From a virus, in the IMG/VR virus record IMGVR_UViG_3300033233_000069, positions 1 to 43,498 of that record: DNA of 43,498 nucleotides. One strand, given 5' to 3'. Below the pieces are notes generated by a model. That model was given only the letters and a program-made list of their open reading frames with translations. It did not search any database and had not been told where the DNA came from. How positions within the stretch are numbered: position 1 is the stretch's first letter; the number at the start of each line of letters is the position of its first letter. A program made the translations under genes and the position numbers. Shown here piece by piece: positions 1,537 through 37,595 of the stretch.

Positions 1537-1722
1537 ATGCCCGTGAGCACCATCATTGGAACGCACATGGGTCGCTTAGTGGATGACCATGCGCGGGAGG
1601 TGCGTGCTGCTAAGAACGCGCGCAACCGTAACCGAGTTCACCCGAAGGGTGCTGTTCATGGTCTTGCAATGCCAGCATCAGCCGAAACGCTACGACGGCA
1701 GTGGGAGGGGAGGGCTAGATGA
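1537..1722 (+). CDS. Small basic hypothetical protein (61 aa)
   Basis: The ATG is preceded by a textbook AGGAGG, the strongest ribosome binding site in this part of the window. It is the first gene after the structured leader. The product is arginine-rich (segments HAREVRAAKNARNRNR and RRQWEGRAR) without hydrophobic stretches, consistent with nucleic-acid or protein binding. Its end overlaps the ATG of the amidoligase-like gene by four bases (ATGA), so the two are probably translationally coupled. No family is recognised. Confidence 0.7.
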   Translation: MPVSTIIGTHMGRLVDDHAREVRAAKNARNRNRVHPKGAVHGLAMPASAETLRRQWEGRAR

Positions 1723-3149
1723 CCGCGCGAGAGGAAGCGGTACGCACCGCTGACCTCGCAACGTGCGATTGTGACCCGTGCAAGCGCAAGAAAGGACTCC
1801 CTCATGGCGTCCACTCGCTTGCGATGCACTCGTATTCGTCGCAGCCGAGCCGGGGATGGCTCGCTCGCAAGACGGCCGCAGACCGCGCCGCTGAACGAGA
1901 AACTGGTAACCCTACTCCTACCCTCGGTGTGGAGTTGGAAACCGCCATTCAGGAACCTGCACGTATACCCGAACTACCCGGCTGTCCCATCGTCCACCCA
2001 CTGTCCCATCACGCGACGGACGATGAGGTACGTATATATTGTCTCCAAATGAACGAATGGCGGGCATGGCGCTTGCGTAATGACCGTCATATCATACGCG
2101 CCCAAGAACGTCAAACTATCGAAGGGGCCATGACGGCGGATGAGGCCGTTTCTATGGCAGCACCACGAGGGCTATGGCATGTGAAGCATGATAGCTCTGT
2201 GACTGGTCCAGAGTTTGCTAGTCATCCGGCTACGCTGGCTTATTGGCATAAGGCTCGCCCATACCTGACAAGTATGTTTAAATCCCTCTTGCATGGTGGC
2301 GTGCGTTCTCATGATGGTGACACATGCGGATTGCATATCAACATCGGCACGGATGCATTTGATGATGCAGGCCATCTTGCGCGGTTCGCTGAGATGGTCG
2401 TCCATAACCCACGTTGGTCTATGCGAATGAGTCAACGGACCCAGCATAGCGCAAACCATTGGGCGCGTTTTGGGAATGAGTTGGACTCTGACCTCCTTGA
2501 CGATTGGGCGTACAGGGTTATGCGCTATGGATATGCGTCTCAAAACCGCTATTGCGTGCTCAATGCGAGTAACCAAGGGCGTATCGAGTTCCGTTTGCCC
2601 CGTGGCACGCTGCGCATAGACCGTTTCTATGCGAAGTTGGAATGGACCGCCGCGATGGTGGAATACACTCGCGATAGCGGGCATCTTATTCAAGTGAGTG
2701 CGTTCATTCGCTGGGCTCAGGAAGTGGGTAAGTACCCGGCGCTCATGTCCTTCATGCGCGAGAAGTTTCGCGGTCGCTTCGAGGAAATGGCAGCCCCGGA
2801 ACCGGAGATGGTACCCGAGCTAGATGAACCGGACCGCCCTATCGACCCTGACCTCCTCGCGGACGTTACCGCTGAGCCGGATGAAGGCACGGAGGAAAGG
2901 CCACAGTGTAGCTGCGGGGATGGATGCCCTGATGGTGAATGCCTAGATTGCAATAGTGAGCCTGAGCTTTGTAACTCTCGACAGCCCGATGGTTCCCGCT
3001 ACTACTGTGAGTTGTGGCTGGGTCATAGCGGCCAGCATGGGTATCCAGATGTGGGTGTCTATTGGGATGACATAGAGCAGCAGCGCCTTCTCGCAGAGAT
3101 GGACGCTTCACAGATGCTCACGCCGACTAGGATGGCTATTGATGTCTGA
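1719..3149 (+). CDS. Amidoligase-like (COOH-NH2 ligase) protein with Cys-rich C-terminus (476 aa)
   Basis: The central region carries the motif series of the glutamine-synthetase/GCS-like putative amidoligases (Pfam Amidoligase_2 type). These are GVELE at about residues 70-74, DSSVTGPEF at about 159-167, CGLHINIG at about 204-211 and IEFRLPRGTL at about 290-299. Such enzymes are predicted to couple a carboxylate to an amine using ATP, through acidic and histidine metal/nucleotide ligands on strands. The N-terminus adds a CDCDPC cluster. The C-terminal 110 residues form an acidic linker followed by a cysteine-rich segment (CSCGDGCPDGECLDC) that may bind zinc. A class II glutamine amidotransferase lies two genes downstream in the same operon, a pairing known for this superfamily. 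The substrate is unknown. The family call is fairly secure; the biochemical role is inference. Confidence 0.8.
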   Translation: MTAREEAVRTADLATCDCDPCKRKKGLPHGVHSLAMHSYSSQPSRGWLARKTAADRAAERETGNPTPTLGVELETAIQEPARIPELPGCPIVHPLSHHATDDEVRIYCLQMNEWRAWRLRNDRHIIRAQERQTIEGAMTADEAVSMAAPRGLWHVKHDSSVTGPEFASHPATLAYWHKARPYLTSMFKSLLHGGVRSHDGDTCGLHINIGTDAFDDAGHLARFAEMVVHNPRWSMRMSQRTQHSANHWARFGNELDSDLLDDWAYRVMRYGYASQNRYCVLNASNQGRIEFRLPRGTLRIDRFYAKLEWTAAMVEYTRDSGHLIQVSAFIRWAQEVGKYPALMSFMREKFRGRFEEMAAPEPEMVPELDEPDRPIDPDLLADVTAEPDEGTEERPQCSCGDGCPDGECLDCNSEPELCNSRQPDGSRYYCELWLGHSGQHGYPDVGVYWDDIEQQRLLAEMDASQMLTPTRMAIDV

Positions 3150-3420
3150 TATCGACCGTCAATCCCCCATCCTGTTAGCCCTGCGCGCTCGTGCGCAAGC
3201 TGTGGACTATCGTAATCACGCGGAACCGCGCGAGCCATCATGGCATCGTCCGACAACGCAAGCCGAGGACGCGTATCAGACCATCCGTGAGAAAGGTATA
3301 GCGCGCCGTGCAGAAGAAGCGCATGCCTCAATAGCCGCATACGATGCGTTTATGACGGCGCTGCGGTCACCATTAGACGCTGCCGATGGGCAGCAGGAAG
3401 GAGACACCGGGCATGGATGA
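3142..3420 (+). CDS. Small helical hypothetical protein (92 aa)
   Basis: I choose the ATG at 3142 over the TTG at 3139. The ATG overlaps the end of the ligase gene by eight bases. The protein is charged and probably helical, rich in alanine, arginine and glutamate (AEDAYQTIREKGIARRAEEAHASIAAYDAF), with no membrane segment or catalytic motif. It sits between the amidoligase-like gene and a cysteine-rich gene, and could be a partner of either. No family is recognised. Confidence 0.65.
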   Translation: MSDIDRQSPILLALRARAQAVDYRNHAEPREPSWHRPTTQAEDAYQTIREKGIARRAEEAHASIAAYDAFMTALRSPLDAADGQQEGDTGHG

Positions 3421-3748
3421 CCCGTGTTATTGCAATGCTTGTATCGGCGTCAGTTCAGCAAATCGCATACCTAGCCTTGGCACGACAGCTTACCTCACAG
3501 CATCAGAGATTGCTTCAGTGGAGTATGCCGAGCTGGCAGCGCTCCAACACGACGCTTCGATATGTCATCCCGAATGCGGAGAATATCGCAATATCGGTGA
3601 TGATGGCGAGCATGCCCATGACAACGTAGACGGGCGATGTTGGCACCCTGACGAGGATATGCCGTCTCGTAAGGTGCGCCTAGAAGATGTATTCAGGCGT
3701 ATCGAAACACTCAATGAGTCGCGACATAAGTCGCAGGAAGGTAGGTAG
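3413..3748 (+). CDS. Cysteine/histidine-rich hypothetical protein (111 aa)
   Basis: The ATG at 3413 has GGAAGGAG upstream; a longer frame from 3386 lacks such support. The N-terminus reads DDPCYCNACIG, and the middle has ICHPECGEYR followed by several histidines and a GRCWHPDED segment, so at least one zinc site is likely. The C-terminal 25 residues are helical and charged. It is encoded between the amidoligase-like and amidotransferase genes with short overlaps, so it may belong to the same functional unit. That is positional inference only. Confidence 0.65.
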   Translation: MDDPCYCNACIGVSSANRIPSLGTTAYLTASEIASVEYAELAALQHDASICHPECGEYRNIGDDGEHAHDNVDGRCWHPDEDMPSRKVRLEDVFRRIETLNESRHKSQEGR

Positions 3749-3758
3749 CACGTCAATC

Positions 3759-4730
3759 ATGTGCATGATTGCATATCGCCCGACCGCGAAGGGACGTGGG
3801 GCGAACATTCCGACACAAGTCATAGACACAGCCATCAAGCGCCACCCTGATGGGTTTGGAGTCGCATGGCGCGAGGCTGGGCAACTGTATACCAAGCGTT
3901 TTGGGCCAGCCGAGAGAGAGGCGTTTCGTAAGACCCTCAAGCGCGTGGATAGGCGCTCCGATATCGAGTATGTGGCGCACTTCCGCATGGCTACACATGG
4001 TCCATGTGCGCAGTCGCATGCACATCCGTTCGAGTATCAGGATGCCAATGAAGGTCGCGTGTTCGTGTTTCATAATGGCATCATTGATATCGACACGGAA
4101 GCCAATGAGTCGGATACGGAAGTCTTCGTTCGTGATGTGATGGCGCATCTACCCTCGCGTTGGTGGGCAGATAAGGCCATCACATTCCTTGTCGAGCAGT
4201 CTATCGGATGGTCGCGGCTGGTTCTCATGACGGCTACGGAAACGGTCAACTTGCAAGAGAAGGATGGCACGTGGGACGGTGGTCTGTGGTATTCATCCAA
4301 TCACAAGCCTACGACGACGTACTTCTATCATGGGGGCCAAGTCTCACCCTACAACGATGACGATTGGTCACTGTCTCTAACTGCCGCCGAGAGAGCGGCG
4401 AGAAAAACATGGCCTATAAGCGTCAGGTCGCCCATCGCTATCCCGGCCAAGACGGGCGAGGACGCCTATCTACCGGACCGCCTTATAAGCCGACCATATC
4501 AGTACCACCACGGCGGCCATACCCTGACGGCCGTCAAGGATATCGACCGCTCGAAGGATGGTGATTGGCCCGAGAGCGTCATGTGCGACACGTGCTATAC
4601 ATTCGGGGATGTATATTGCATTGATGGAAATACTTACATCGACATGGGTCATCGCGTTGATGCCGATGCCGAAGCGGACGATACTCACGAAGAGGAGCGG
4701 TCCATGGATTACGAACTGACGGAAGCATAA
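3759..4730 (+). CDS. Class II glutamine amidotransferase (Ntn hydrolase) domain protein (323 aa)
   Basis: Starting at the ATG at 3759 gives Met-Cys-Met-Ile-Ala-Tyr. Removal of Met would leave the N-terminal nucleophile cysteine required by class II glutamine amidotransferases; upstream in-frame ATGs would bury it. Supporting motifs are HFRMATHG at about residues 74-81, an HAHPF segment near 87-91, HNG at 105-107 (oxyanion hole) and SDTEVF at 118-123. These are the standard layout of GATase type 2 domains, which release ammonia from glutamine. The last 120 residues are not part of that domain and include a CDTCYTFGDVYC segment and an acidic tail. Its natural partner here is the upstream ATP-dependent ligase, which could use the ammonia for side-chain amidation. 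The acceptor is unknown. Confidence 0.85.
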   Translation: MCMIAYRPTAKGRGANIPTQVIDTAIKRHPDGFGVAWREAGQLYTKRFGPAEREAFRKTLKRVDRRSDIEYVAHFRMATHGPCAQSHAHPFEYQDANEGRVFVFHNGIIDIDTEANESDTEVFVRDVMAHLPSRWWADKAITFLVEQSIGWSRLVLMTATETVNLQEKDGTWDGGLWYSSNHKPTTTYFYHGGQVSPYNDDDWSLSLTAAERAARKTWPISVRSPIAIPAKTGEDAYLPDRLISRPYQYHHGGHTLTAVKDIDRSKDGDWPESVMCDTCYTFGDVYCIDGNTYIDMGHRVDADAEADDTHEEERSMDYELTEA

Positions 4731-10529: not shown

Positions 10530-11294
10530 GTGCAACGTTTCGTTTCTCTGGTGGGCGCGTTGGCGCTCACACTGTTACTCGCCGGGGGGTCCCTAGGAGC
10601 GGGTCAGCCACAGACAACGACTATCTGCCATGGGGCGGGCTTGGCTGGAACGACACAGTTCACGACCCTTACGCTGCCCTCGCAGGCATTGGCAGCCCAC
10701 TTTGACGAGAATGGCACGCCGCAGGCAGGCCACGAACAGGACTACTTCGGCCCATGTGTCGAGGCCACACCGTCACCGTCACCGTCACCGTCACCGTCAC
10801 CATCACCATCACCGGAGGTAACACCATCACTAGAGCCTTCCGTCGAACCGTCTCCGTCATCGGAGCCTTCGTCACCGCCTACACCTTCGCCTTCACCCTC
10901 GGCATCCCTCACGCCCTCGCCGTCGCCCGGGGTGACGCCGACTCCGACGCCCGAACCGACTGCGACGGCCTCTGTGGGGCCGAGTCCGACGCCGATTGCT
11001 ACCGAAAATCCGACCCCGAGTTCGACCCCTGCGCCGACTGCGACCGAGACCTCTGTCCCGACCCCGAATGCCAGCGAGACCCCTATCCCGACAGTCTCAC
11101 CGTTGCCCACGGGTTCTGCTACTGCACTCCCGGGGAACGTGACCCCGACTACTACGCTTCCCGCGACGGACGCCGCCGCGGCTGGTAATCTTGGTAGCAA
11201 TGACTCGGCACGGGCAGCCGTACTCATTATCATCTTCGGTGTCATGGCCTTCTATCTTGTATGGCGAGTCCTTTGGCCTCGCAGGAAGCGGTAA
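10530..11294 (+). CDS. Secreted Pro/Ser/Thr-rich surface protein with C-terminal anchor (254 aa)
   Basis: The GTG start has AAGGATAGG upstream. Residues 1-24 form a signal peptide (VSLVGALALTLLLAGG core). Residues 28-76 are a small domain with TTICHGAG, an AAH and a terminal GPC, resembling short Cys/His domains in secreted actinobacterial proteins. Residues 78-215 are a low-complexity Pro/Ser/Thr stalk, and residues about 229-248 are a membrane helix followed by RRKR. The stalk starts with a hexamer tandem repeat in the DNA (10771-10812). Its topology implies a protein exposed on the infected cell's surface with a cytoplasmic basic tail. A role in blocking other phages or altering the envelope is possible but unproven. 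It is unusual in an early phage operon. Confidence 0.8.
   Translation: MQRFVSLVGALALTLLLAGGSLGAGQPQTTTICHGAGLAGTTQFTTLTLPSQALAAHFDENGTPQAGHEQDYFGPCVEATPSPSPSPSPSPSPSPEVTPSLEPSVEPSPSSEPSSPPTPSPSPSASLTPSPSPGVTPTPTPEPTATASVGPSPTPIATENPTPSSTPAPTATETSVPTPNASETPIPTVSPLPTGSATALPGNVTPTTTLPATDAAAAGNLGSNDSARAAVLIIIFGVMAFYLVWRVLWPRRKR
10771..10812 (+). repeat. Hexanucleotide tandem repeat
   Basis: Five copies of CGTCAC are followed by two of CATCAC, encoding the Ser-Pro start of the stalk of the secreted protein. Such repeats can change copy number by slippage in multiples of two codons, altering stalk length without frameshift. Confidence 0.85.
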
Positions 11295-11298
11295 CCAT

Positions 11299-11655
11299 AT
11301 GACCCTACCCACTCACGTCCGCCTCCTCTCACAGCGTATCGACGTGCGCGAGGAGGGAGAGCTACACATGGAGGCTCATGAGGATGGTGCGGAGCCTCAT
11401 CAGCATCGTGTCTATGGGGTGTACGATGAGGAGAAACAGGTCATCACGCTCGATGCTGCCATGGGCTTCGAGCGCCAGCGCGAGACATTCCTACATGAGA
11501 ACCTGCATGCCATGTGTGCAGTCGCGCAACTAGACGGACTATCCGCCATGGAGGGGTTTGATGAACACTGGGTAAGTTCGCTTTCACCCGTGATGTTGTC
11601 GTGGATGCGTGACAATCCCGCAGTGATGAAGTTTCTCATGGAGACGCAACCGTGA
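11299..11655 (+). CDS. Small zincin-like metallopeptidase (118 aa)
   Basis: I start at the ATG at 11299, just after the surface-protein stop, with AGGAAGCGG upstream; a longer in-frame extension to 11191 would overlap that gene. The key motif is HENLH at residues 66-70, an HExxH zinc site in a helix, with acidic residues FDEHW about 20 residues later as a possible third ligand. The ending LSPVMLSWMRDNPAVMKFL resembles small phage proteins of the type E-x-x-V-x-x-L-S-P-x-L...LRDNP that carry HExLH. It may be a toxin-type or processing protease. The substrate is unknown and activity is not proven. Confidence 0.65.
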   Translation: MTLPTHVRLLSQRIDVREEGELHMEAHEDGAEPHQHRVYGVYDEEKQVITLDAAMGFERQRETFLHENLHAMCAVAQLDGLSAMEGFDEHWVSSLSPVMLSWMRDNPAVMKFLMETQP

Positions 11656-11934: not shown

Positions 11935-12162
11935 ATGAAGTTTCGTACACTCAATAGCGATTACACCATTGACACCGAGGCGATGACATGGAGTCGTCAA
12001 GTGCGCGAGGGGCGAAAGAGTCCCCTGCTGTGGGCTAACAGCGGCCCACTGGCCCAAGTGCCGGACCCGATTGTCGGTCAGCGTTGCGCCCTGCTCGAAA
12101 CCTCCAAGGGTCTACATGGTGTCATCTATACGAGTACGGTCATCGAGGTGCTCGATGCCTGA
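11935..12162 (+). CDS. Small beta-rich hypothetical protein (75 aa)
   Basis: The ATG follows one base after the previous stop. The sequence reads as successive strands (KFRTLNSDYTIDT, TWSRQVREG, GVIYTSTVIEVL) without motifs. A small barrel or SH3-like fold is possible. It overlaps the RNA ligase gene by eight bases. Confidence 0.65.
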   Translation: MKFRTLNSDYTIDTEAMTWSRQVREGRKSPLLWANSGPLAQVPDPIVGQRCALLETSKGLHGVIYTSTVIEVLDA

Positions 12163-12700
12163 TATTGAGTTTCGCGGCTGGCCGAAGATTGCCAGACTCA
12201 ATCGTGACATCATCATCACGGAGAAAATCGACGGCACGAATGCCGCCATCGGCGTCACAGAGGATGGCATCGTCTATGCACAGTCGCGGACCCGCATCAT
12301 CACCCCGGAGAACGACAACTACGGCTTCGCCAAGTGGGTCGAGTCCATCGCGGACTATGCTCGCAGTACGCTCGGCCCTGGCTTACACTTCGGGGAGTGG
12401 TGGGGCAACGGCATCCAGCGCAACTACGGACAGGCGACCAAGCGGTTCAGCCTGTTCAACGTCGCCCGCTGGGCGGACCTCGGCACGGAGGGCGTCATCG
12501 GCGTCGTTCCCGTGCTGTACGAGGGGCCATATGAGAAGGCCAGCATCACACTCGTCCTCGCGAACCTAAAGGTCCATGGGTCCTACGCCGCCCCCGGCTT
12601 CATGGAGCCCGAGGGCATCGTCATCTATCACACGGCTGCCAAGACCATGTTCAAGGTTACACTGGAACATGATGAGAAGCCGAAGGGGAGTACCGAATGA
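12155..12700 (+). CDS. RNA ligase family protein, minimal (181 aa)
   Basis: The ATG at 12155 lies within the end of the previous gene. The covalent nucleotidyltransferase motifs are present in order. Motif I is TEKIDGTN with Lys24 as the predicted AMP acceptor; AQSRTR follows near 42-47. GEWWG is at 80-84, FSLFNV at about 98-103, EPEGIVIYH (motif IV) at about 151-159, and MFKV with Lys167 is motif V. The layout fits Rnl2-like RNA ligases reduced to the catalytic domain. Phage RNA ligases typically reseal tRNAs cut by host defences. No polynucleotide kinase is seen in this window, so the end-healing partner is absent or elsewhere. Confidence 0.85.
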   Translation: MPDIEFRGWPKIARLNRDIIITEKIDGTNAAIGVTEDGIVYAQSRTRIITPENDNYGFAKWVESIADYARSTLGPGLHFGEWWGNGIQRNYGQATKRFSLFNVARWADLGTEGVIGVVPVLYEGPYEKASITLVLANLKVHGSYAAPGFMEPEGIVIYHTAAKTMFKVTLEHDEKPKGSTE

Positions 12701-12936
12701 ATACAACGCTTGAAGTCTTGCAGTCGGTCGGCGATGAGCGGCTCCGTCAAGACCTGCGGTGGGGGCAGCAAAACCATGGTGACGGTCTGTGGCTAGCCAT
12801 TCTGACCGAGGAGGTCGGTGAGACGGCAGAGGCCATGCTGGACCTTAGTCAGACGGATATACGAGCCGAGTTGGTCCAAGTGGCTGCCGTTGCAGTGGCA
12901 TGGATTGAATCTATCGACCGAAGAGGTGTGACTTGA
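12697..12936 (+). CDS. MazG-like nucleotide pyrophosphohydrolase (79 aa)
   Basis: This is an all-alpha NTP-PPase pattern. [15 protein letters not shown] leads into [13 protein letters not shown] at about 36-48, with the E-E-x-x-E metal ligands. Next comes [16 protein letters not shown], the second metal-binding helix. The length of about 80 residues is that of single-domain MazG-like enzymes, which hydrolyse (d)NTPs to monophosphates. It is encoded next to two other predicted nucleotide enzymes, and the three probably adjust nucleotide pools during replication. Confidence 0.8.
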
Positions 12937-13412
12937 TGCGTGTATATCTCGCAGGCCCAATGACGGGCATAAAGGGCTTCAACATACCAGCCTTTGATGC
13001 CATGGCCCTGCGACTGCGTAAGGCGGGCTTCGAGGTCGTCAGTCCGGCCGAACTGGACAACCCGACCATCCGGTCCATCAGTCTCGGCTCGGCGGATGGT
13101 GCTATCGCCACGCTGGAAACGCATGGCGCTACATGGGGGGATTTTCTTGCACGCGATATAGAACTCATCGCCGATGATGGCATCGAGGCCGTGGTCGTGC
13201 TGCCCGGCTGGGAGAAGTCGCGCGGCGCGCGGTTGGAGACATTCGTCGCCAATGCGTTGTGCGGACTGCCCATCTACACGGTGGGTCTAGCATGGAATCA
13301 CCTGACCCTGCATCCCGTGCCCTCCCTCACGCTCGTTCGCGCATGGGCAGCGAATGATGACATCGTGTTCGGCCATCAGTACGACCATCCAGCCGTAGAG
13401 GCACACCGATGA
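12936..13412 (+). CDS. DUF4406 / nucleoside 2-deoxyribosyltransferase-like protein (158 aa)
   Basis: I choose the ATG at 12936 (GAAGAGG upstream) rather than the TTG three bases before. The N-terminus VYLAGPMTG is the loop motif of this Rossmann-like family. FNIPAF and an SPAELD segment follow, and the [13 protein letters not shown] motif near 85-100 closes the active site. These proteins are related to nucleoside 2-deoxyribosyltransferases and N-glycosidases and are common in phages, probably in nucleotide salvage. The last 35 residues after the domain are extra. It overlaps the next gene by four bases. Confidence 0.85.
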
Positions 13413-13819
13413 ATCCCAAGGACGCCATCGGCCTCACGAAGTCGCCGCTACGACTCGTACCCCCCGCCCTTGTCATCGAAACGGCTGCTGCAATGGCTAA
13501 TGGGGCAGAGAAATACGGTCCGTACAACTGGCGGGAGACGGGTGTCAACCTGTCTGTCTACCTTGAAGCCCTGCTGCGTCATGTCTATGCGTACATGGAT
13601 GGCGAGGAGAGCGCCGAGGACTCGGGTGTGAAGCATCTTGCCCATGCTGCTGCCTGCCTTGCTATCATCTTCGATGCTGAGTCGGTCGGTAAGCTCATTG
13701 ACGACCGACCTACGCCCGGTCAGGCAGCTCGTCTCATGGCTGAACAAACGCAGCAGACGACGACGACCATCAACCCGTGTGACGGAAGCAACTGGTTCGT
13801 GGTGCACCAGGAGAGGTGA
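13409..13819 (+). CDS. dATP/dGTP diphosphohydrolase-like (DUF5664-type) protein (136 aa)
   Basis: Signature segments are [13 protein letters not shown] at the N-terminus, [15 protein letters not shown] at about 28-42, [17 protein letters not shown] at about 55-71 and [15 protein letters not shown] at about 74-88. Together they match the phage family annotated as dATP/dGTP diphosphohydrolase N-terminal domain (formerly DUF5664), an all-alpha metal-dependent NTP pyrophosphatase relative. The C-terminal 40 residues are a polar Thr/Gln-rich tail. The family includes the dGTP-removing enzyme of diaminopurine phages. No PurZ homologue is seen here, so a general pool-adjusting role is more likely. 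Confidence 0.8.
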
Positions 13820-16980: not shown

Positions 16981-17053
16981 TGCGGGTAGGTCTGGTGACC
17001 AAGCGGGCCTCATACGCCTGACTAGCAGAGTTCGATTCTCTGGCCCGCCACCA
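16981..17053 (+). tRNA. Compact tRNA with CAT anticodon and encoded CCA (Met or Ile2)
   Basis: The acceptor GCGGGT (from 16982) pairs with GCCCGC (17043-17048), with one terminal T-C mismatch outside. The anticodon stem CGGGC/GCCTG (17004-17008 and 17016-17020) encloses the loop CTCATAC with T33, CAT and A37. The variable loop is ACTAG. The T arm is CAGAG-TTCGATT-CTCTG (17026-17042), and the discriminator A17050 is followed by encoded CCA. The D arm is abnormal: GGTC/GACC with only a TGGT loop, making the whole RNA 73 bases with CCA. CAT can mean initiator or elongator Met, or Ile if C34 is modified to lysidine. The short D arm is the main doubt. Confidence 0.7.
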
Positions 17054-29611: not shown

Positions 29612-32600
29612 CTAGCCACCGAATAGTGACCTCAGCCCCATCATATCTTGCTCAAGTATAGCACGCACATCTACGGCTGCCACCGGAACGGAAAGGTCAA
29701 CCCGTGACGTAGGGCCAGTGGACGGGGTAGGCTGTTGCAGATTTTGCAACTGCTGCTCTTGTTTGGTCGGAATAGTAGGCGCTTGGGATTCGCCGCCGCC
29801 CTGCAAGAAATCTAGCGCCTCACTGCCCACGCGACCGAATAGCGCGAACCACCGTTCGGGCGACATCATCGCCAACTGACCAGAGACCGCCCGACCCACG
29901 TCGGGACCACCAGATTGTATCAGTCCCCGCACGAGCGGTGAAACACGAGCCGACATGTCCGACCATGGGAGTGAGGGCGTCAGGTAATCAAGGGCGAAGC
30001 CCGTCTCAGATTTGCCAATCTCTTCCATCGCGGCATTGAACTCCGGGTCATATTCGCGCTGGATGGCGATGGCGTTCTGTACGCGCAGGATGTCATAGGT
30101 CAGGCCATAGGGGTTGCGCGAGAGATACTTGATGGTCAGCGGCAAGACCTTGCCCCACATATAACTCGCCGGATATAGACCGAAGACAGGGTGATTCAGA
30201 CTGCGCATCATCACGGTTCGCTTGGTCTGCATCTCGGCAACCATCCAGGCGTCATCCTTGGCCGACAGGAGTTTGTCGCGCACTAGTTGCGCGATGAGGG
30301 CCTGCGTGCGATTGAATGGCACAGCAGCGCTGGTCGGGATATTCTTGACCATGGCCGCCAGTTCGTTGCGCGTGCTGCCCTCCAGCCTCGGCTGTAGTTC
30401 ATCCCGGAGGAACTTGGCATACTGCTGCATGATGGCCTCTTCATCGGGATTTGCGCGCGGTAGCCCGGTGGCGACACGTTCACGCAGCCATTGGGGCAGG
30501 CGGTCTGCAAGATTAGGCGTACCCGCCCCCGGTCTATAGAGCCCGGTGTCGATGACAAGTTGCTTATACTCATCCACCACGGACTCCAGATGTTCGATGT
30601 TGCTCTCTGGTAACCCCGTAAGGCCCTGCGGGTCCATATGCTCTCGCAGTCGAGCAAAATATGCCTTGCGGGCTACTTCGGGACCGAAGGCAAGGTCGCC
30701 CAACTCAGCGGCAGCCTCTTCCGGTTTGGTCATAGCATACTGCGAAAGGTCATTCGCCGCCTTGGAGGAATGAAAGTTGTTGACGAACTTACGGTATGCA
30801 AGCACCGCCTCAACTTGTTTAGGGTCAGCCAGAGCCGGATGCAACCTAGCATCCATCTCGATAGCACGAATATGCTCATCGAGAGCATGGATTGCCTCGT
30901 GACGCAAAGTACCAGCAGGCGTTGCACTCACTACTTCGGGACGGCCGGATACTGCCCACTGTAACTCATTCTGCGCCACACCCTTGTCCCAGCTCAGTTG
31001 GACATCCTTGCCCTTGCCATAGAATCGCGGACTCAACTCGATGCTAGTAGCGCGCACGCCGGGTTCATAGTTCACCGTCTCGGCCTGGGCATGCAAATCA
31101 TCGGGGTGAAACTTCGGATTGACACGGATGTTCTTGAGTGTAACGTCAGGGAAATCAGCCTTAAACTGTCCTATCTCATCAACCACTGACTGCTTGATGC
31201 CCACTGGCATATCTTTGAATCCACCACCGATGAACCGTGGCCCGAACTGCGCCGTCAAATCTTTGATGCTGGTGGCGGGAGGAACAACGACTTGTCCCAA
31301 CCCAGCACTCTCGATGACGGTCTGTCGCCCGGATGGGTCAAGGGTCGTCAGAAACAACTCAGACCAACGCTTGATAGCATCGGGGGCCTCGCCCGCTTTG
31401 AGCATGTTAGCCAAGTGACCCACCCAACGGTCTGCTGTTTCACCCGGTTTGAGGTCTGCCTGCAGGACACCCGTCAGGAAATCCCAAGGGTCCATGCCCC
31501 GGTCCTGCGCAAGCCGCGCCACGAGGTCTTGCGCCTGCTTGCCATATGCACCAGGAAGGTCCAAGCCTCCCTCGCCCACGGGTTGTGCCACGCGATACCA
31601 ATAGGATTGCCAACTATCGCCGAAGTAACGCTCGGCACGCTTTACATAATCAGGATGGGCATGCAGGTCATTGGCGAGTCGCTCTTTCAGCCAGGGAATA
31701 TCCTTTGCGCCCGGCACGCGTGCGCCTGTCGTACGGTCGAATATTCCCGTGATGTCTTTGCGCAGGGCGGCTCCATCCACATAACCGAGTTCACGCGCCA
31801 ACGCATCGGGATTGATGGGTCGAATATCGGCCACTGTATGAGGCACCAGCCACTCACTTTCATGAATGAGTCCCGCCGTACTGAGACCAGTATCTCCAAC
31901 CGTCACCCGTCGAGCAGAGGCCAGTTGTTCTTGGATATAGCGCAATCCTGTTTCCTTGTCATCCAACACATGACCGGCTGCCTGAGAATAGACATTGCGG
32001 ATTTCCGCGAAAGACTTGGCCATGGGGCCTGCCAACTCTGCCTTCATCTCGGCTTGCAAGGCCGGGTCTGAAATACCCTCGATGATTTTGGGTACATCCT
32101 CAAGGGTTTCCCGCACGATACTGCCAAGGTCTTCATGCAACATCTTCGTCATGTTGTTGGCGATATACGTGTCCGGTGCGTTCTGAATAGCCTGCATCTT
32201 TTCGGCGAACTTCGTTCGGCCAACGCGCGCCTCCAGACCAGTACGGAGTCCATCTGTGAAGTTACTTCGTGTAGCATATTCAGGCAAGTCGAAAGCAAAG
32301 TCCCGAGCGGTTCCCGTGCGACCGATGTTCTCTTCAATGGCACGTAACCCACGCAGGGCGGTAGCTTTCAACCCCCCGCCGCCGACTGGCATGATGCCCT
32401 GCATGGCCATGAAATACGGTGCATCAGTGATACGCTGAATGAGGAACATGGGGCTGGAGTAACGCAACTTGTTATACATCGTCACGGTTACGCCTCCGGC
32501 CCAGTTTGCCGGGTCGATACCTCTACGTCGTAAGATGTTTCTCATTCGCTGAGTCAGTTTTGGCAATACACCCATGACGCGCATATCGCCCTCTGTTGCA

Positions 32601-35113
32601 TCGAGCAGAGCACCCATTACGTCATGTGCGGTCAGGGCCTCACCGCTAGGCGTACGGAAGTTGAGGGGGATGGCATCCTGCATAGCCGCCCAAAGACCGG
32701 CCCTGGGTCCCGTATCTTCAATCCTCAAACCACGCAGGGTCGTATGCTCTATCCCGGCTGCATCGCGCGCTGCCGTAAATAGGTCGCTGGCTGCTTGCTT
32801 CGGCAATCCCAACTTTTCGACAGCCGTTTTCTCGAAGCGCCGTTGGATGTTCAATACTAACCGGCGACCCGTGACAACATCCAGGGAAGTACGGATATAG
32901 GCATCCAAGGATTCCCCTACGTCACCCACGTGAGACCCTATCGTCTGTCCAAGGACATTACGCACGGTATCCATGGCGCGCGGCTGCGCAGGCATATCGA
33001 ATACGTGCTGGATAGACGGGTCTCGCTCGGCCACGTATTTGCCGGTCATCGCATCGCGCTTGAGGCCCCATGCCACGCTGTCTTCCGGCTTGAACCCGAT
33101 GCGCCAAAGGGGTTTACCGTCGATAGTATTGCGGGCAAGCATATCACGAATGGGTTTCAGTGCGGGGTCATTGAGTTGCTCGGTCGCGCGCACAGGGAAG
33201 ATGCCCCGGTCAATATCCCGACGCAGAGCACTCAGCAGTATATCAAGCTGTGAACCGCCACCGGGAGCATATCCGATGTCCCCGATGAGGGGATACACGC
33301 GAGCAGCATCATTCCACATCGCTGTGCGCTCGGCAATCGTGGTCCCGCTCTTGATACGGGCAAACAGTTCCTCGGCGAGGGTGGTGTCAAGTGTGTGGTC
33401 ATTCATCAATGTGAGCTGGTCGAGCGGTAGCTTGTCAACAGCATTGCCATAGGCCACACGGTCTACTTCCCTGATAGCAGCGTTAAGTTCTGAGTCCGAG
33501 ACTTTATAAGTGGCCGCATGTAACAACGAACGTAAGTCGTCGCTCATAGCTCCAACCTTGACCGCCCATCCGGCTACATCACCACCGAAAACATGCGCCG
33601 CGCGTCCGGCGAGATTGTCCAACTCGCCAGGAGTAAATGTGTTTTTGGCGTTTTGCACCATTGAATCCGTCAGACGGTCAAGTACATCCCTCTGTGAACC
33701 ACCAACCATCGGGGCGATGATATCATCAGGTGCTGTATGTACGAGGTCTTCACCCAGCCCCTTGGACAACTGCGTGGCGCGAGTCTCGCGGGCGATGAGT
33801 AGATTGGCCTGGTCTAAACTGTAGCTTGCAAGAGCCTGGTCAATCTCGGTCGTTTTCCCGGCCCCCCGAGCCAGATTACGCAAGTCATTGATGGTTGTCT
33901 CACCATAAGCAGACCGCAGGGAACCAACAGCCACGCCCGACCGAAGGTCTATGAGAGAACGAGTCACTGAACTCTTTGGGAGGTGGGGATTGACAATCTT
34001 CCCGGCCGCCCGAAAGATGGGACCAGTGATGGGACTGTCAGCCACGCGGGCCGCAGCAATGGCTACCTTCTCAAAAGCAGACGTGGCAGCGATACCTGAT
34101 TCACCAATGGCACGCCCAATAGCGACAGCCTTACCCCCGATGCCAGCCAATCCGCCAGCGATAACTAGGGGGTCGGTGACCGTGCCTCCGACAATCTGCT
34201 TGAGAGGGTCACCAGAGACGGACTGACCCGACCGAATGATGAAGTCGAGAGCGTGCCTCTCTGTCCATCCATGCTGTCGTACCCCCTCGATGGCTGTTTG
34301 TTCGACGGGCGATACAGTATCACCACGGTCGAACCGGGCCATGGATTCCTCTAGGCGATTACGACCACCGGAGGCATTAGCCTTGAGATATGCGGTCGCC
34401 TGGGCCTCGGTAAAGATGCCAGCCTGGAACTGCGCCACAGCATATTTGGCATCAGGCCCAATGTCGATACCCTCATTCTGCCGTCTCATGATGGCAGGAA
34501 GGGTTTTCTCGATGCCTGCGATGCCGGGAGCCGCACCAGGGTCAAAGAAGCCAACATCGCCTAGGAAGGATTGTAAGTGTGCAGCAGGTAGACCAAACCA
34601 TCCCTGTAGGGCATGCGACAATGCCCCACCCAACGAACCCTGTCCCGCCGCACCCATGTAAGTATCGAGGGATTTGCCGACAAAGCCTGCCTTACTTTGC
34701 ATATCGGCAGCATCCGCAATCTCACGGTTGAAGTCAGCCCGCAGGTTTCCACCGCCGAACATATCAGCATCAGCAGCCGCCTTGACGGTTAGCCACTTGT
34801 TGTATGCCGCTGGGTCTGTCGTCTTCAATACTTCGCCATTCTTGGCGAACTGCTGGTCGGCACCCAGGCCGCCAAGAGGGATATGGCTCAACAGGGTACC
34901 CGCTGCGGTAATCGGTGCAAGTGCAGCCTGAGTAAATGGATTATCGAAAATCACCTTCCCCAAATCCCCGAGAAAAGAAGACTCTGCCGCCTGCGGAGCA
35001 CGCGGCATGTTCAGGCCGCTTGGTACCGAAGTAGTTGGACCAGAAGGCGAGAGGGTCTTAGGTCCGACCGGGGCAGGAGTCGGCGGTGTCGCGAAGACTT
35101 TGGGGTCGAACAT
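29612..35113 (-). CDS. Giant virion-associated protein with HEAIH zincin motif (1833 aa)
   Basis: I start at the ATG at 35113 (MFDPKVFATPPTP), two bases after the stop of the 826-residue gene. The N-terminus is Pro/Ser-rich, then mostly helical, with a glycine/alanine-rich hydrophobic patch at about 305-330 (DPLVIAGGLAGIGG). The middle is helical with scattered domains. HEAIHALDEH at about 1405-1414 is an HExxH zinc motif in the form typical of peptidases of large phage polyvalent proteins. The C-terminus is helical with an LTPSLPWSDM segment. Located between the scaffold and portal-proximal genes, it may be an internal virion or ejection protein carrying a protease domain. The function of most of it is unknown. 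Confidence 0.75.
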   Translation of the reverse strand: MFDPKVFATPPTPAPVGPKTLSPSGPTTSVPSGLNMPRAPQAAESSFLGDLGKVIFDNPFTQAALAPITAAGTLLSHIPLGGLGADQQFAKNGEVLKTTDPAAYNKWLTVKAAADADMFGGGNLRADFNREIADAADMQSKAGFVGKSLDTYMGAAGQGSLGGALSHALQGWFGLPAAHLQSFLGDVGFFDPGAAPGIAGIEKTLPAIMRRQNEGIDIGPDAKYAVAQFQAGIFTEAQATAYLKANASGGRNRLEESMARFDRGDTVSPVEQTAIEGVRQHGWTERHALDFIIRSGQSVSGDPLKQIVGGTVTDPLVIAGGLAGIGGKAVAIGRAIGESGIAATSAFEKVAIAAARVADSPITGPIFRAAGKIVNPHLPKSSVTRSLIDLRSGVAVGSLRSAYGETTINDLRNLARGAGKTTEIDQALASYSLDQANLLIARETRATQLSKGLGEDLVHTAPDDIIAPMVGGSQRDVLDRLTDSMVQNAKNTFTPGELDNLAGRAAHVFGGDVAGWAVKVGAMSDDLRSLLHAATYKVSDSELNAAIREVDRVAYGNAVDKLPLDQLTLMNDHTLDTTLAEELFARIKSGTTIAERTAMWNDAARVYPLIGDIGYAPGGGSQLDILLSALRRDIDRGIFPVRATEQLNDPALKPIRDMLARNTIDGKPLWRIGFKPEDSVAWGLKRDAMTGKYVAERDPSIQHVFDMPAQPRAMDTVRNVLGQTIGSHVGDVGESLDAYIRTSLDVVTGRRLVLNIQRRFEKTAVEKLGLPKQAASDLFTAARDAAGIEHTTLRGLRIEDTGPRAGLWAAMQDAIPLNFRTPSGEALTAHDVMGALLDATEGDMRVMGVLPKLTQRMRNILRRRGIDPANWAGGVTVTMYNKLRYSSPMFLIQRITDAPYFMAMQGIMPVGGGGLKATALRGLRAIEENIGRTGTARDFAFDLPEYATRSNFTDGLRTGLEARVGRTKFAEKMQAIQNAPDTYIANNMTKMLHEDLGSIVRETLEDVPKIIEGISDPALQAEMKAELAGPMAKSFAEIRNVYSQAAGHVLDDKETGLRYIQEQLASARRVTVGDTGLSTAGLIHESEWLVPHTVADIRPINPDALARELGYVDGAALRKDITGIFDRTTGARVPGAKDIPWLKERLANDLHAHPDYVKRAERYFGDSWQSYWYRVAQPVGEGGLDLPGAYGKQAQDLVARLAQDRGMDPWDFLTGVLQADLKPGETADRWVGHLANMLKAGEAPDAIKRWSELFLTTLDPSGRQTVIESAGLGQVVVPPATSIKDLTAQFGPRFIGGGFKDMPVGIKQSVVDEIGQFKADFPDVTLKNIRVNPKFHPDDLHAQAETVNYEPGVRATSIELSPRFYGKGKDVQLSWDKGVAQNELQWAVSGRPEVVSATPAGTLRHEAIHALDEHIRAIEMDARLHPALADPKQVEAVLAYRKFVNNFHSSKAANDLSQYAMTKPEEAAAELGDLAFGPEVARKAYFARLREHMDPQGLTGLPESNIEHLESVVDEYKQLVIDTGLYRPGAGTPNLADRLPQWLRERVATGLPRANPDEEAIMQQYAKFLRDELQPRLEGSTRNELAAMVKNIPTSAAVPFNRTQALIAQLVRDKLLSAKDDAWMVAEMQTKRTVMMRSLNHPVFGLYPASYMWGKVLPLTIKYLSRNPYGLTYDILRVQNAIAIQREYDPEFNAAMEEIGKSETGFALDYLTPSLPWSDMSARVSPLVRGLIQSGGPDVGRAVSGQLAMMSPERWFALFGRVGSEALDFLQGGGESQAPTIPTKQEQQLQNLQQPTPSTGPTSRVDLSVPVAAVDVRAILEQDMMGLRSLFGG

Positions 35114-35114
35114 A

Positions 35115-37595
35115 CTACAGTGCCTTCGGCGGACCGAACTTAGGAATGAGTAGCGATGGAGTGGGTGCAGGTGTCGGTGCCGCATAGGGCGGCTCATAGA
35201 GTCGCGGTGGTGCTGTAGGTGTTGGAGTCACAGCCAAAGGCGTCGCCGTAGGCGCAACCGTAGGCGCAACCGTAGGCGTAACCGTAGGCGTTAGGGTCGG
35301 CAGATAAGATGGCTGTGGCGGCGCGAATGTCGGCAGGGTATTCGTTGGAACACCGATGTCGATATTCCGAGATGCAGGACTGATACCTGGCACCCTCGGT
35401 AGGCGCAGTTCATGCTGCCCAAAGGTGAGCGCGACTGGTTGAAGTGCGCCGGATACCTGCTGGCTACCAGGCAGTTGCAGGTCGGTACGATGCTGCGGCA
35501 AGCCGCCTCGTCCAGCATTTGCGAACGCACCCTCACCAGACGTATCCGGTGAAATGGCCATGGTCGTCATTATCCGCCATGCTTCGGCGATACGCTGGTC
35601 GTAGATATTCGTCGTGCCAAACTGGCTTTCGGCTTGCGCAAGAAATGCCTGCTGGAACTCTCGGTCACCAGCCAATGCACTGACCTGCTCGGCCGAAAGA
35701 TTCTCCGCAGCCGATTTGACCGATGCGGCCAATGGTGTATCGAATGTCAAGCCAGGAACATTGCCCAAAGACCGAAGCGAGGGCGAGATGACGTTGATAG
35801 CCGTCGCGATATTGAAATCCGCACCAGTGGAAAGTGGTGCAGACACAGTAGCTACCTCTTGGCCATTAGCATCATAGGCATGACTTGCCTGTGTTGCCGT
35901 AAAAACACCATCTTTGATATCCGCAGAGATAGTGGCAGAAACCTTACCGTTGCTATCGCGAATATTGACCGAGGCAGATGTATTGAGGCTACCGTCAGAG
36001 TTGACTAATGTAGTCCCATATTTGGCATCAAAAGCCTGAGCCCGGGCCAACAGGTCCCCCTGCGACATTGCCGGTGGACTCAGAATCATATTGCCACTCT
36101 TGTCTATCGTGGAAGATACACCATCTGCCACGGGGCTCGTCAACGTCCATTGGAGTTTACCAGCAGAATCTGGATAACCATACATCGTGAGTACCGCATC
36201 CCCTACCCGATAGGTGATGACGCTACCAACCTGAATCGGTGCAGTATTGGGATTACTCGGGTCGGTTACGGTAATGCTATGCAGGGGTACGACCGCCATG
36301 ATGGCCTTGCCACCCAACTGTGGGATGGCAACCATCTGCGAATCACCAGGAACAGATGCTCGCGGAACGATACCGAGCGGACCATTACCAGTAGGGTCAT
36401 AGTTACCCTGAGCATCCGTGGCAGCATAGACGAAAGCATCAGGATTAGCTGCCTTCGCATCGCTCTGTTGTTTGAAGAAGGCACTCGCCTGCTGGACATT
36501 GGCGTCGATACCACCCTGTCCGAGCATACCCGACCCGAATGAAGGATTATTTCCTGCATCCTCACCGATGGCACGTGCCGCATCAGCCTTAAGCATATTA
36601 GCCGTAGCCGGGTCTAAGCCCGGTGTGCCAGCCAGGCCGCCGACCGCATTAGAGAATGTCTGCGCCGCAGTCTGGCGGTCGAGTTGGCTGGCGTTAGGAT
36701 TACCCCATGTCCGAACGAACTGGTTGTATGCGGCATCATAACTTTGAGCGATAGGCCAAACCTTCAAGTTGGCACCCCAAGAGGCCATTTGGGATTCGTT
36801 ATCCACTGCTGATTTTGCCTGAGAAATATATCCGTCCTTCTGAGCCCGCACAGCGATGGCAGCATAACCAGCCGTAGCCCTCGTTATGGCACTGGCAAAG
36901 AAGGTTTGTGTCACATTGCCATCCCAGTCTGGGTTGATAGCATGTATAGCATCGAGTACCGCCTGATACTTGGCCGGATTCCCTGCGATGTCTTGGGTCA
37001 ATCCTTCGAGAACCAGGTCGCCATCAGCGGTGATGTTGAGACCAGCCGCAGCCGCATACTTCTGCGCTGCATCCGTAAGCGCATTACCGACTGCGATGTC
37101 CGTCTTGGTCGTATCTGCCACGAACTGATTATAGGCATCCGTCTTCGCCTTGGCGGCTCCTGCACGACCCTTAGCCTTAGCGCTTTCGATTAGTTGCGCA
37201 GCATCCTTTTGTAGTGAACGCCAAAACTCGCTATCTTTCGGAATTTTCTTGGCCCACCTGAGAAAGAAATCGGCATATCCACGGTCGCTCAACTTGCCCT
37301 GTAAGTGTTGCAGGTCTGCCTTGGATTGCTCAACAGCATATTGCAACTGCAAATACTGGTTCTTGGTAGTATCGTATTCCGGGTCAGCAGGGTCAAGCTC
37401 AGCCATGCGAGACTTCCAGTAGGCAAGTACCCGTTCATCCGTCGCCTTGCCACCCTCGAACACGCCACCATTTTTCCAGGCATCCATGAGATTACGGTCA
37501 GCCTGGGCCTGCATCTCGCGAGCGATAGCGATAATCGTATTTGCCAGACTGGGGACAGCCCTGGGCAGACGCCCGAACTTACCACGCCGAGCCAT
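35115..37595 (-). CDS. Large virion protein with proline-rich repeat C-terminus (826 aa)
   Basis: The ATG overlaps the preceding small gene's stop (TAATG). The first 320 residues are helical and Ala/Lys/Gln-rich (SLANTIIAIAREMQAQADRNLMDAWKNGG, KAKGRAGAAKAKTDAYNQF). From about 360 to 600 beta-like stretches appear. The last 90 residues are low complexity, with TPTV/APTV/APTPAPTP runs. In the DNA this includes a four-copy 12-base repeat at 35247-35294. It is encoded between the giant protein and the portal-proximal small genes, so it is probably a structural or ejected virion protein. No enzymatic motif was recognised. Confidence 0.7.
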   Translation of the reverse strand: MARRGKFGRLPRAVPSLANTIIAIAREMQAQADRNLMDAWKNGGVFEGGKATDERVLAYWKSRMAELDPADPEYDTTKNQYLQLQYAVEQSKADLQHLQGKLSDRGYADFFLRWAKKIPKDSEFWRSLQKDAAQLIESAKAKGRAGAAKAKTDAYNQFVADTTKTDIAVGNALTDAAQKYAAAAGLNITADGDLVLEGLTQDIAGNPAKYQAVLDAIHAINPDWDGNVTQTFFASAITRATAGYAAIAVRAQKDGYISQAKSAVDNESQMASWGANLKVWPIAQSYDAAYNQFVRTWGNPNASQLDRQTAAQTFSNAVGGLAGTPGLDPATANMLKADAARAIGEDAGNNPSFGSGMLGQGGIDANVQQASAFFKQQSDAKAANPDAFVYAATDAQGNYDPTGNGPLGIVPRASVPGDSQMVAIPQLGGKAIMAVVPLHSITVTDPSNPNTAPIQVGSVITYRVGDAVLTMYGYPDSAGKLQWTLTSPVADGVSSTIDKSGNMILSPPAMSQGDLLARAQAFDAKYGTTLVNSDGSLNTSASVNIRDSNGKVSATISADIKDGVFTATQASHAYDANGQEVATVSAPLSTGADFNIATAINVISPSLRSLGNVPGLTFDTPLAASVKSAAENLSAEQVSALAGDREFQQAFLAQAESQFGTTNIYDQRIAEAWRIMTTMAISPDTSGEGAFANAGRGGLPQHRTDLQLPGSQQVSGALQPVALTFGQHELRLPRVPGISPASRNIDIGVPTNTLPTFAPPQPSYLPTLTPTVTPTVAPTVAPTATPLAVTPTPTAPPRLYEPPYAAPTPAPTPSLLIPKFGPPKAL
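35247..35294 (-). repeat. 12-base tandem repeat in the 826-residue virion gene
   Basis: Four consecutive copies of CGTAGGCGCAAC (two exact, two with one or a few changes) encode Thr-Val/Ala-Pro units in the C-terminal tail. Copy number may vary without frameshift. Confidence 0.8.

Follow-up and report, generated by a model that had tools for sequence, protein, structure and literature searches.

The stretch analysed here, hereafter the window, spans 43,498 bases and is an entire virus record of IMG/VR (IMGVR_UViG_3300033233_000069), for which no nucleotide similarity to known phages was found. Between positions 1719 and 4730, four open reading frames (ORFs) follow one another on the + strand in the order given by an earlier note made from the sequence alone, and the first and last of them are predicted to encode an amidoligase (AL) and a class II, N-terminal nucleophile (Ntn) glutamine amidotransferase (GAT). 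We conclude that the locus almost certainly belongs to a known phage AL-GAT module. The features of the locus are as follows.

1719-3149 (+): AL, 476 amino acids, a predicted glutamine-synthetase-like COOH-NH2 ligase (PHROG 16683, Amidoligase_2, profile match to YbdK, predicted model)
1923-2660 (+): AL catalytic core, residues 69-314 (GxExE 70-74, DxS 158-160, GxE 163-165, GxH 204-206, R240, ExR 290-292), from residue conservation and the confident part of the model
2889-3146 (+): Cys-rich C-terminal tail of AL, residues 391-476, with a CELxxGHxGxH motif; low-confidence model, likely flexible
3139-3420 (+): small gene, 93 amino acids, overlapping the AL stop codon; homologue only in the sister contig described below
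3386-3748 (+): Cys/His-rich small gene, 120 amino acids, or 111 if it starts at ATG 3413
3759-4730 (+): predicted class II (Ntn) GAT, 323 amino acids (GATase_4, GlmS/PurF profile matches)
3759-4310 (+): GAT glutaminase core, residues 1-184 (C2, R76, T79, H80, N106, G107, D119), from conservation and a model resembling the GlmS glutaminase domain and EgtC
4311-4727 (+): C-terminal part of GAT, containing a single CDTC pair; low-confidence model

For the Cys/His-rich gene the better start is ATG 3413, which overlaps the stop of the preceding gene. Although the reading frame of GAT extends back to 3687, it is the start at 3759 (MCMIAY...) that places a Cys at the N-terminus, as in class II GATs.

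The earlier note had read the first gene as a COOH-NH2 ligase-type protein, and this reading was borne out. The motifs it quoted were located exactly (G70VELE74, C203GLHINIG, and E290FRLPRGTL), and AL matched PHROG 16683 (E=1.6e-16) and the PHROG "amidoligase enzyme" family (4e-5). Amidoligase_2 (PF12224) aligned over profile positions 5-245 of 245 (E=5.4e-4; 20.3 bits, just below the 22-bit cut-off) and was matched at E<=1e-3 by 41 of 57 aligned AL relatives, the best at 6e-35. Residues G70, E72, E74, D158, G163, E165, G204, H206, R240, E290, and R292 were invariant where aligned in the 57 ALs, and S160 was kept in 55/56 relatives; judged by sequence, this set (ExE, DxS, GxE, GxH, R, ExR) is the pattern of glutamine-synthetase-fold ligases. 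Moreover, a PDB profile search with eight phage ALs retrieved the YbdK-type ligases 1tt4 (1.6e-4) and 1r8g (5.6e-3). The AlphaFold model (predicted local distance difference test ~90 in the core, mean 75) was matched by Foldseek to glutamine synthetase (3e-6), YbdK (5e-4), and annotated viral amidoligases (up to 2e-12), including those of the Marvin-group phage Tesla, Arthrobacter phage Salgado, and Pseudomonas phage tf. AL is, on this evidence, a predicted glutamine-synthetase-fold amidoligase with complete conserved active-site residues, for which ligation activity is predicted.

The assignment of the last gene as an Ntn-type GAT with a Met-Cys start held equally well. GAT matched GATase_4 above the cut-off (1.1e-6), and its profile matched the GlmS/PurF glutaminase domains of the PDB at 1e-11, with the HxRxATHG, HP, HNG, and SDTE motifs aligned. 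Among its relatives, C2, R76, N106, and G107 were present in 56/56, T79 in 55/56, D119 in 54/56, and H80 in 53/56; in the profile alignment, R76, T79-H80, N106-G107, and D119 correspond to glutamine-site residues of the GlmS family. GlmS R73 and D123 hold the alpha-carboxylate and alpha-amino groups of a gamma-glutamyl group, and the GAT residues matching them are conserved. A Foldseek search with the AlphaFold model retrieved the glutaminase domain of GlmS (2.5e-6) as well as EgtC (1e-4). GAT is a stand-alone protein, whereas GlmS, PurF, and AsnB have the glutaminase domain fused to a synthase. Taken together, GAT is a putative class II (Ntn) glutamine amidotransferase with a full active-site set and predicted hydrolytic activity. 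Global TM-scores were low for the AL and GAT models, which we attribute to the unstructured ends of both.

The AL and GAT families are reportedly functionally linked, according to work of Iyer, Aravind and co-workers, and their joint occurrence was evident in our scans. The two closest relatives of the window are uncultivated phages, the sister contig 3300036766_000385 (GAT 91% identical) and L011 (AL 59% identical). Wider scans yielded 80 loci seeded from AL and 80 seeded from GAT; the loci were taken in order of similarity to the window and are no census. Of the viral loci, 78/80 AL-seeded ones also held GAT and 77/79 further GAT-seeded ones also held AL; each of the four loci with one gene only breaks off at a contig end next to that gene. 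Dereplication to GATs less than 60% identical left 60 pairs, drawn from phage isolates and viral contigs. In 59 of them, as in the window, the sister contig, and L011, AL precedes GAT and shares its strand, with a median AL-GAT stop-to-stop gap of -3 nucleotides and 49 pairs within 150 nucleotides; the 60th (L138, 5974-9479) has one AL flanked by two GATs. Furthermore, GAT was present in 74/80 AL loci on bacterial genome contigs, mostly from Ruminococcus and relatives. The module thus occurs in very diverse phages and many bacterial genomes. Both expected folds were matched and the pair recurs in other phages, the two points on which the earlier note had let its assignment depend.

A third obligatory neighbour was ruled out, as neighbour clusters reach at most 12/60 loci. 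These include what we take, from our own reading of the sequences, to be terminase, MazG-like, WhiB-like, primase, and other genes; one ATP-grasp-like cluster occurred in 6 of the 60 loci. A natural AL-GAT fusion, considered as proof of a complex, was dropped, since none was found among the loci searched.

The earlier note had regarded the locus as an undescribed system, which the literature contradicts. The AL-GAT pair has already been reported for Pseudomonas phages LUZ24/tf, mycobacteriophage Marvin, OM43 phages, and RIO-1-like phages. For phiEco32, two papers credit to Iyer et al. (2009) the prediction that the module alters host cell-wall peptides and blocks superinfection (PMC10580990, PMC11318856). 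For the RIO-1-like cassette, PMC5498523 credits the same prediction to Hardies et al. (2013) and to an Iyer paper that the citing authors date 2002. The window pair is therefore a divergent new example of an already described, widespread module and not a new system, and what it contributes is an operon with inserted small genes.

In comparison with these systems, the Marvin group (Gattaca gp111-112) resembles the window in carrying AL ahead of GAT on one strand and in an AL alike in sequence and structure; it differs in that identity is ~25-27%, the two genes directly adjoin without small genes, and there is an N-terminal Cys-rich region plus a short C-terminal one. Methylophilales phages MEP401/402 and phage ctgrD200 also have AL and GAT, there adjacent and upstream of replication/RNA polymerase genes, but they lack intervening genes, their AL has an internal Cys-rich region, and identity is 20-30%. 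The cassettes of RIO-1-like phages, phiEco32, and the LUZ24/PaP3/tf podoviruses share the AL/GAT families and the placement of both genes on the replication side, but additionally have a second amidoligase, ATP-grasp, and gamma-glutamylcyclotransferase (GGCT), none of which was found in the window. A full peptidoglycan cassette in the window was rejected, as neither GGCT nor ATP-grasp was found; a COOH-NH2_lig search also gave no match, but its control was likewise silent, so this absence is weak. Finally, Bacillus/Geobacillus phages with AL and GGCT, and phage C75C1 with a GAT-GGCT fusion, resemble the window in combining the AL family with a gamma-glutamyl-cleaving partner, and differ in that their ALs form a sister subfamily in which GGCT substitutes for GAT or is fused to it.

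The earlier note had further proposed a four-gene system that included the Cys-rich C-terminal region of AL and the Cys/His-rich small protein. This part did not survive comparison with the sister contig and L011: the sister contig lacks the Cys/His-rich gene, its GAT beginning ~10 bases past the homologue of the 93-amino-acid gene, in L011 AL and GAT are separated by two different small genes, and the L011 AL ends without a Cys-rich tail, which is also missing in others. In most phages nothing lies between AL and GAT. The 93-amino-acid gene (3139-3420) has a homologue in the sister contig only (phmmer 1e-50), and tblastn of both small genes in phages gave zero matches. The CELxxGHxGxH tail motif, with one copy in the window AL and two in the sister AL, occurs nowhere else among the relatives compared. 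The inserted small genes and the AL tail are lineage decorations outside the conserved module. Cys pairs of a more general kind were frequent, with at least two CxxC pairs ahead of the catalytic core in 40/57 dereplicated ALs and at least one past the core in 33/57 dereplicated GATs. What stood of the proposed small modification system acting on a host or phage carboxylate is the two families and their linkage; its novelty and the extra Cys-rich parts did not.

Small genes around AL-GAT look shuffled among close relatives. The 142-amino-acid gene upstream of AL (908-1336, +) has an apparent sister counterpart downstream of GAT (L010 2944-3405), which carries a long AAYxTAW-like repeat. A DPCYCNxCxGV Cys motif, possibly a mobile small motif, opens the window Cys/His gene (3413-3748), while in the sister it closes a different small gene (L010 2159-2383).

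The partner of AL is more variable in the sister subfamily that includes the AL of phage C75C1, surveyed here in 55 dereplicated loci. Of these, 22 have GGCT without GAT, six GAT without GGCT, eight both, and 10 neither, while nine are too truncated to tell; in four of the eight loci with both (L004, L266, L268, L271), GAT and GGCT form one polypeptide. Nine of the GGCT calls, for the most part weaker ones, were compared with Pfam together with an additional fused protein, and all matched GGACT above the cut-off; tblastn of one GGCT in phages gave no match. Among annotated phages, Geobacillus GR1 and Bacillus 055SW001 have AL and GGCT, and Arthrobacter Ottawa and Salgado have AL and GAT plus an upstream GGCT recognised by profile. 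At least six GAT/GGCT changes within this subfamily are needed on the AL tree, a quick tree with many weak forks. The Pfam note on Amidoligase_2 reportedly names both partners, so the association of AL with GAT and GGCT is not new; new here are the GAT/GGCT counts and the AL tree. GAT-GGCT fusion proteins were observed in L004 (5001-5897), L266, L268, L271, and L259, and the C75C1 annotation mentions the cyclotransferase only. Conversely, L129, L130, L138, and L257 were ruled out as fused GAT-GGCT and have GAT only; in L129 and L257, the GATs beside sister-subfamily ALs are short (~190-200 amino acids), near a bare glutaminase core.

The most likely mechanism, in our view, although we hold it tentatively, is that AL and GAT are a make-and-break pair on one shared gamma-glutamyl substrate. 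AL would activate a glutamate-type gamma-carboxylate with ATP and couple it to an amine, like other glutamine-synthetase-fold ligases; GAT would grip the gamma-glutamyl group and cleave its amide via the N-terminal Cys. Both would work on one common substrate during phage takeover, by a logic comparable to that of EgtA/EgtC in ergothioneine synthesis, where EgtA is a glutamine-synthetase-fold gamma-glutamyl ligase and EgtC, like the window GAT, which it matches in structure, is a stand-alone class II Ntn hydrolase; unlike the window pair, these belong to an unrelated operon. Sequences and predicted structures back the two folds, the complete active sites, and the obligatory linkage, whereas the gamma-carboxylate chemistry, the sharing and identity of the substrate, and the timing are what we infer; a host cell-wall peptide has been proposed most often as the substrate. 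The competing chemistry, favoured by the earlier note, is glutamine-dependent amidation, in which ammonia from glutamine hydrolysis by GAT would pass to AL for amidation of a carboxylate on some molecule of the host or phage, following the logic of MurT-GatD. The strict AL-then-GAT order with overlapping genes, the conserved glutamine-binding residues of GAT, and the GlmS glutaminase domains as its best PDB matches all agree with amidation, which we nevertheless regard as possible but somewhat doubtful: no AL-GAT fusion was found among the loci searched, and GGCT, an enzyme unable to supply ammonia, stands in place of GAT or is fused to it in the sister subfamily. This replacement makes the make-and-break scheme a serious competitor. 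GGCT and GAT have one ability in common, the cleavage of gamma-glutamyl amides; glutamine-synthetase-fold ligases form such bonds, and class II GATs that stand alone, EgtC for example, act as gamma-glutamyl hydrolases. On these grounds we rate make-and-break slightly above amidation. By extension, and with a little more reserve, AL-GAT and AL-GGCT may be interchangeable modules in which the ligase attaches a gamma-glutamyl group and an Ntn hydrolase or cyclotransferase removes it, and not the glutamine-dependent amidating enzymes of their annotation.

Several observations weigh against the make-and-break scheme. The tight translational coupling is equally expected of an ammonia-channelling complex. 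The GAT/GGCT exchange is seen only in the sister AL subfamily; in the window's own, the partner is almost always GAT, with GGCT in 5/60 loci, and a GGACT profile search of the window record gave no match while its positive control did. Moreover, neither partner was found in ten untruncated sister-subfamily loci, the tree behind the changes has the weak forks mentioned above, and the literature searched yielded no biochemical assay of what the AL-GAT module does. The near-absolute linkage and the GAT-for-GGCT exchange make ammonia supply versus gamma-glutamyl cleavage a direct biochemical question.

As for the target, host peptidoglycan or its precursors may be altered early in infection so that superinfecting phages are excluded, a quite plausible proposal, if short of an even chance, and compatible with either chemistry. 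It has been put forward in print for phiEco32 and, with a "peptidoglycan modification cassette" of AL, ATP-grasp, GGCT, and GAT, for RIO-1-like phages, and the window pair lies in a + strand block annotated with exonuclease, RNA ligase, and nucleotide enzymes, away from the head, tail, packaging, and lysis genes on the - strand, a layout from which early expression is suggested. Against this, no supporting experiment was found in the literature searched, neither ATP-grasp nor GGCT was detected in the window (with the weak COOH-NH2_lig negative noted above), and no secretion or cell-wall domain was recognised in AL or GAT. It seems unlikely that the pair instead serves phage nucleotide or nitrogen metabolism, whether by forming or removing a small soluble gamma-glutamyl amine or through modification of a base or nucleotide. 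Nucleotide genes are nearby (a dATP/dGTP diphosphohydrolase-like gene, 13409-13819; DUF4406, 12933-13412) and GGCT and glutathione-synthase genes form part of a related phage module; however, no base-modification enzyme was recognised among the window genes searched, and the neighbours differ across AL-GAT loci.

Elsewhere on the + strand, the RNA ligase lies at 12071-12700 (PF09414, 6e-13; PHROG 548, 1e-30). The gene at 12933-13412 (+) is DUF4406/nucleoside 2-deoxyribosyltransferase-like and is followed by one resembling the N-terminal part of dATP/dGTP diphosphohydrolase (13409-13819, +; PF18909, 3e-25); these are nucleotide pool genes with a possible link to modified bases. A weak match to the putative metallopeptidase family DUF6782 (4e-4; PHROG 1233, 1e-9) was found at 11191-11655 (+). 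A lone tRNA-Met (cat) gene at 16981-17053 (+) separates the + strand block from the - strand structural block, which contains a 1861-amino-acid ORF (29612-35197, -).

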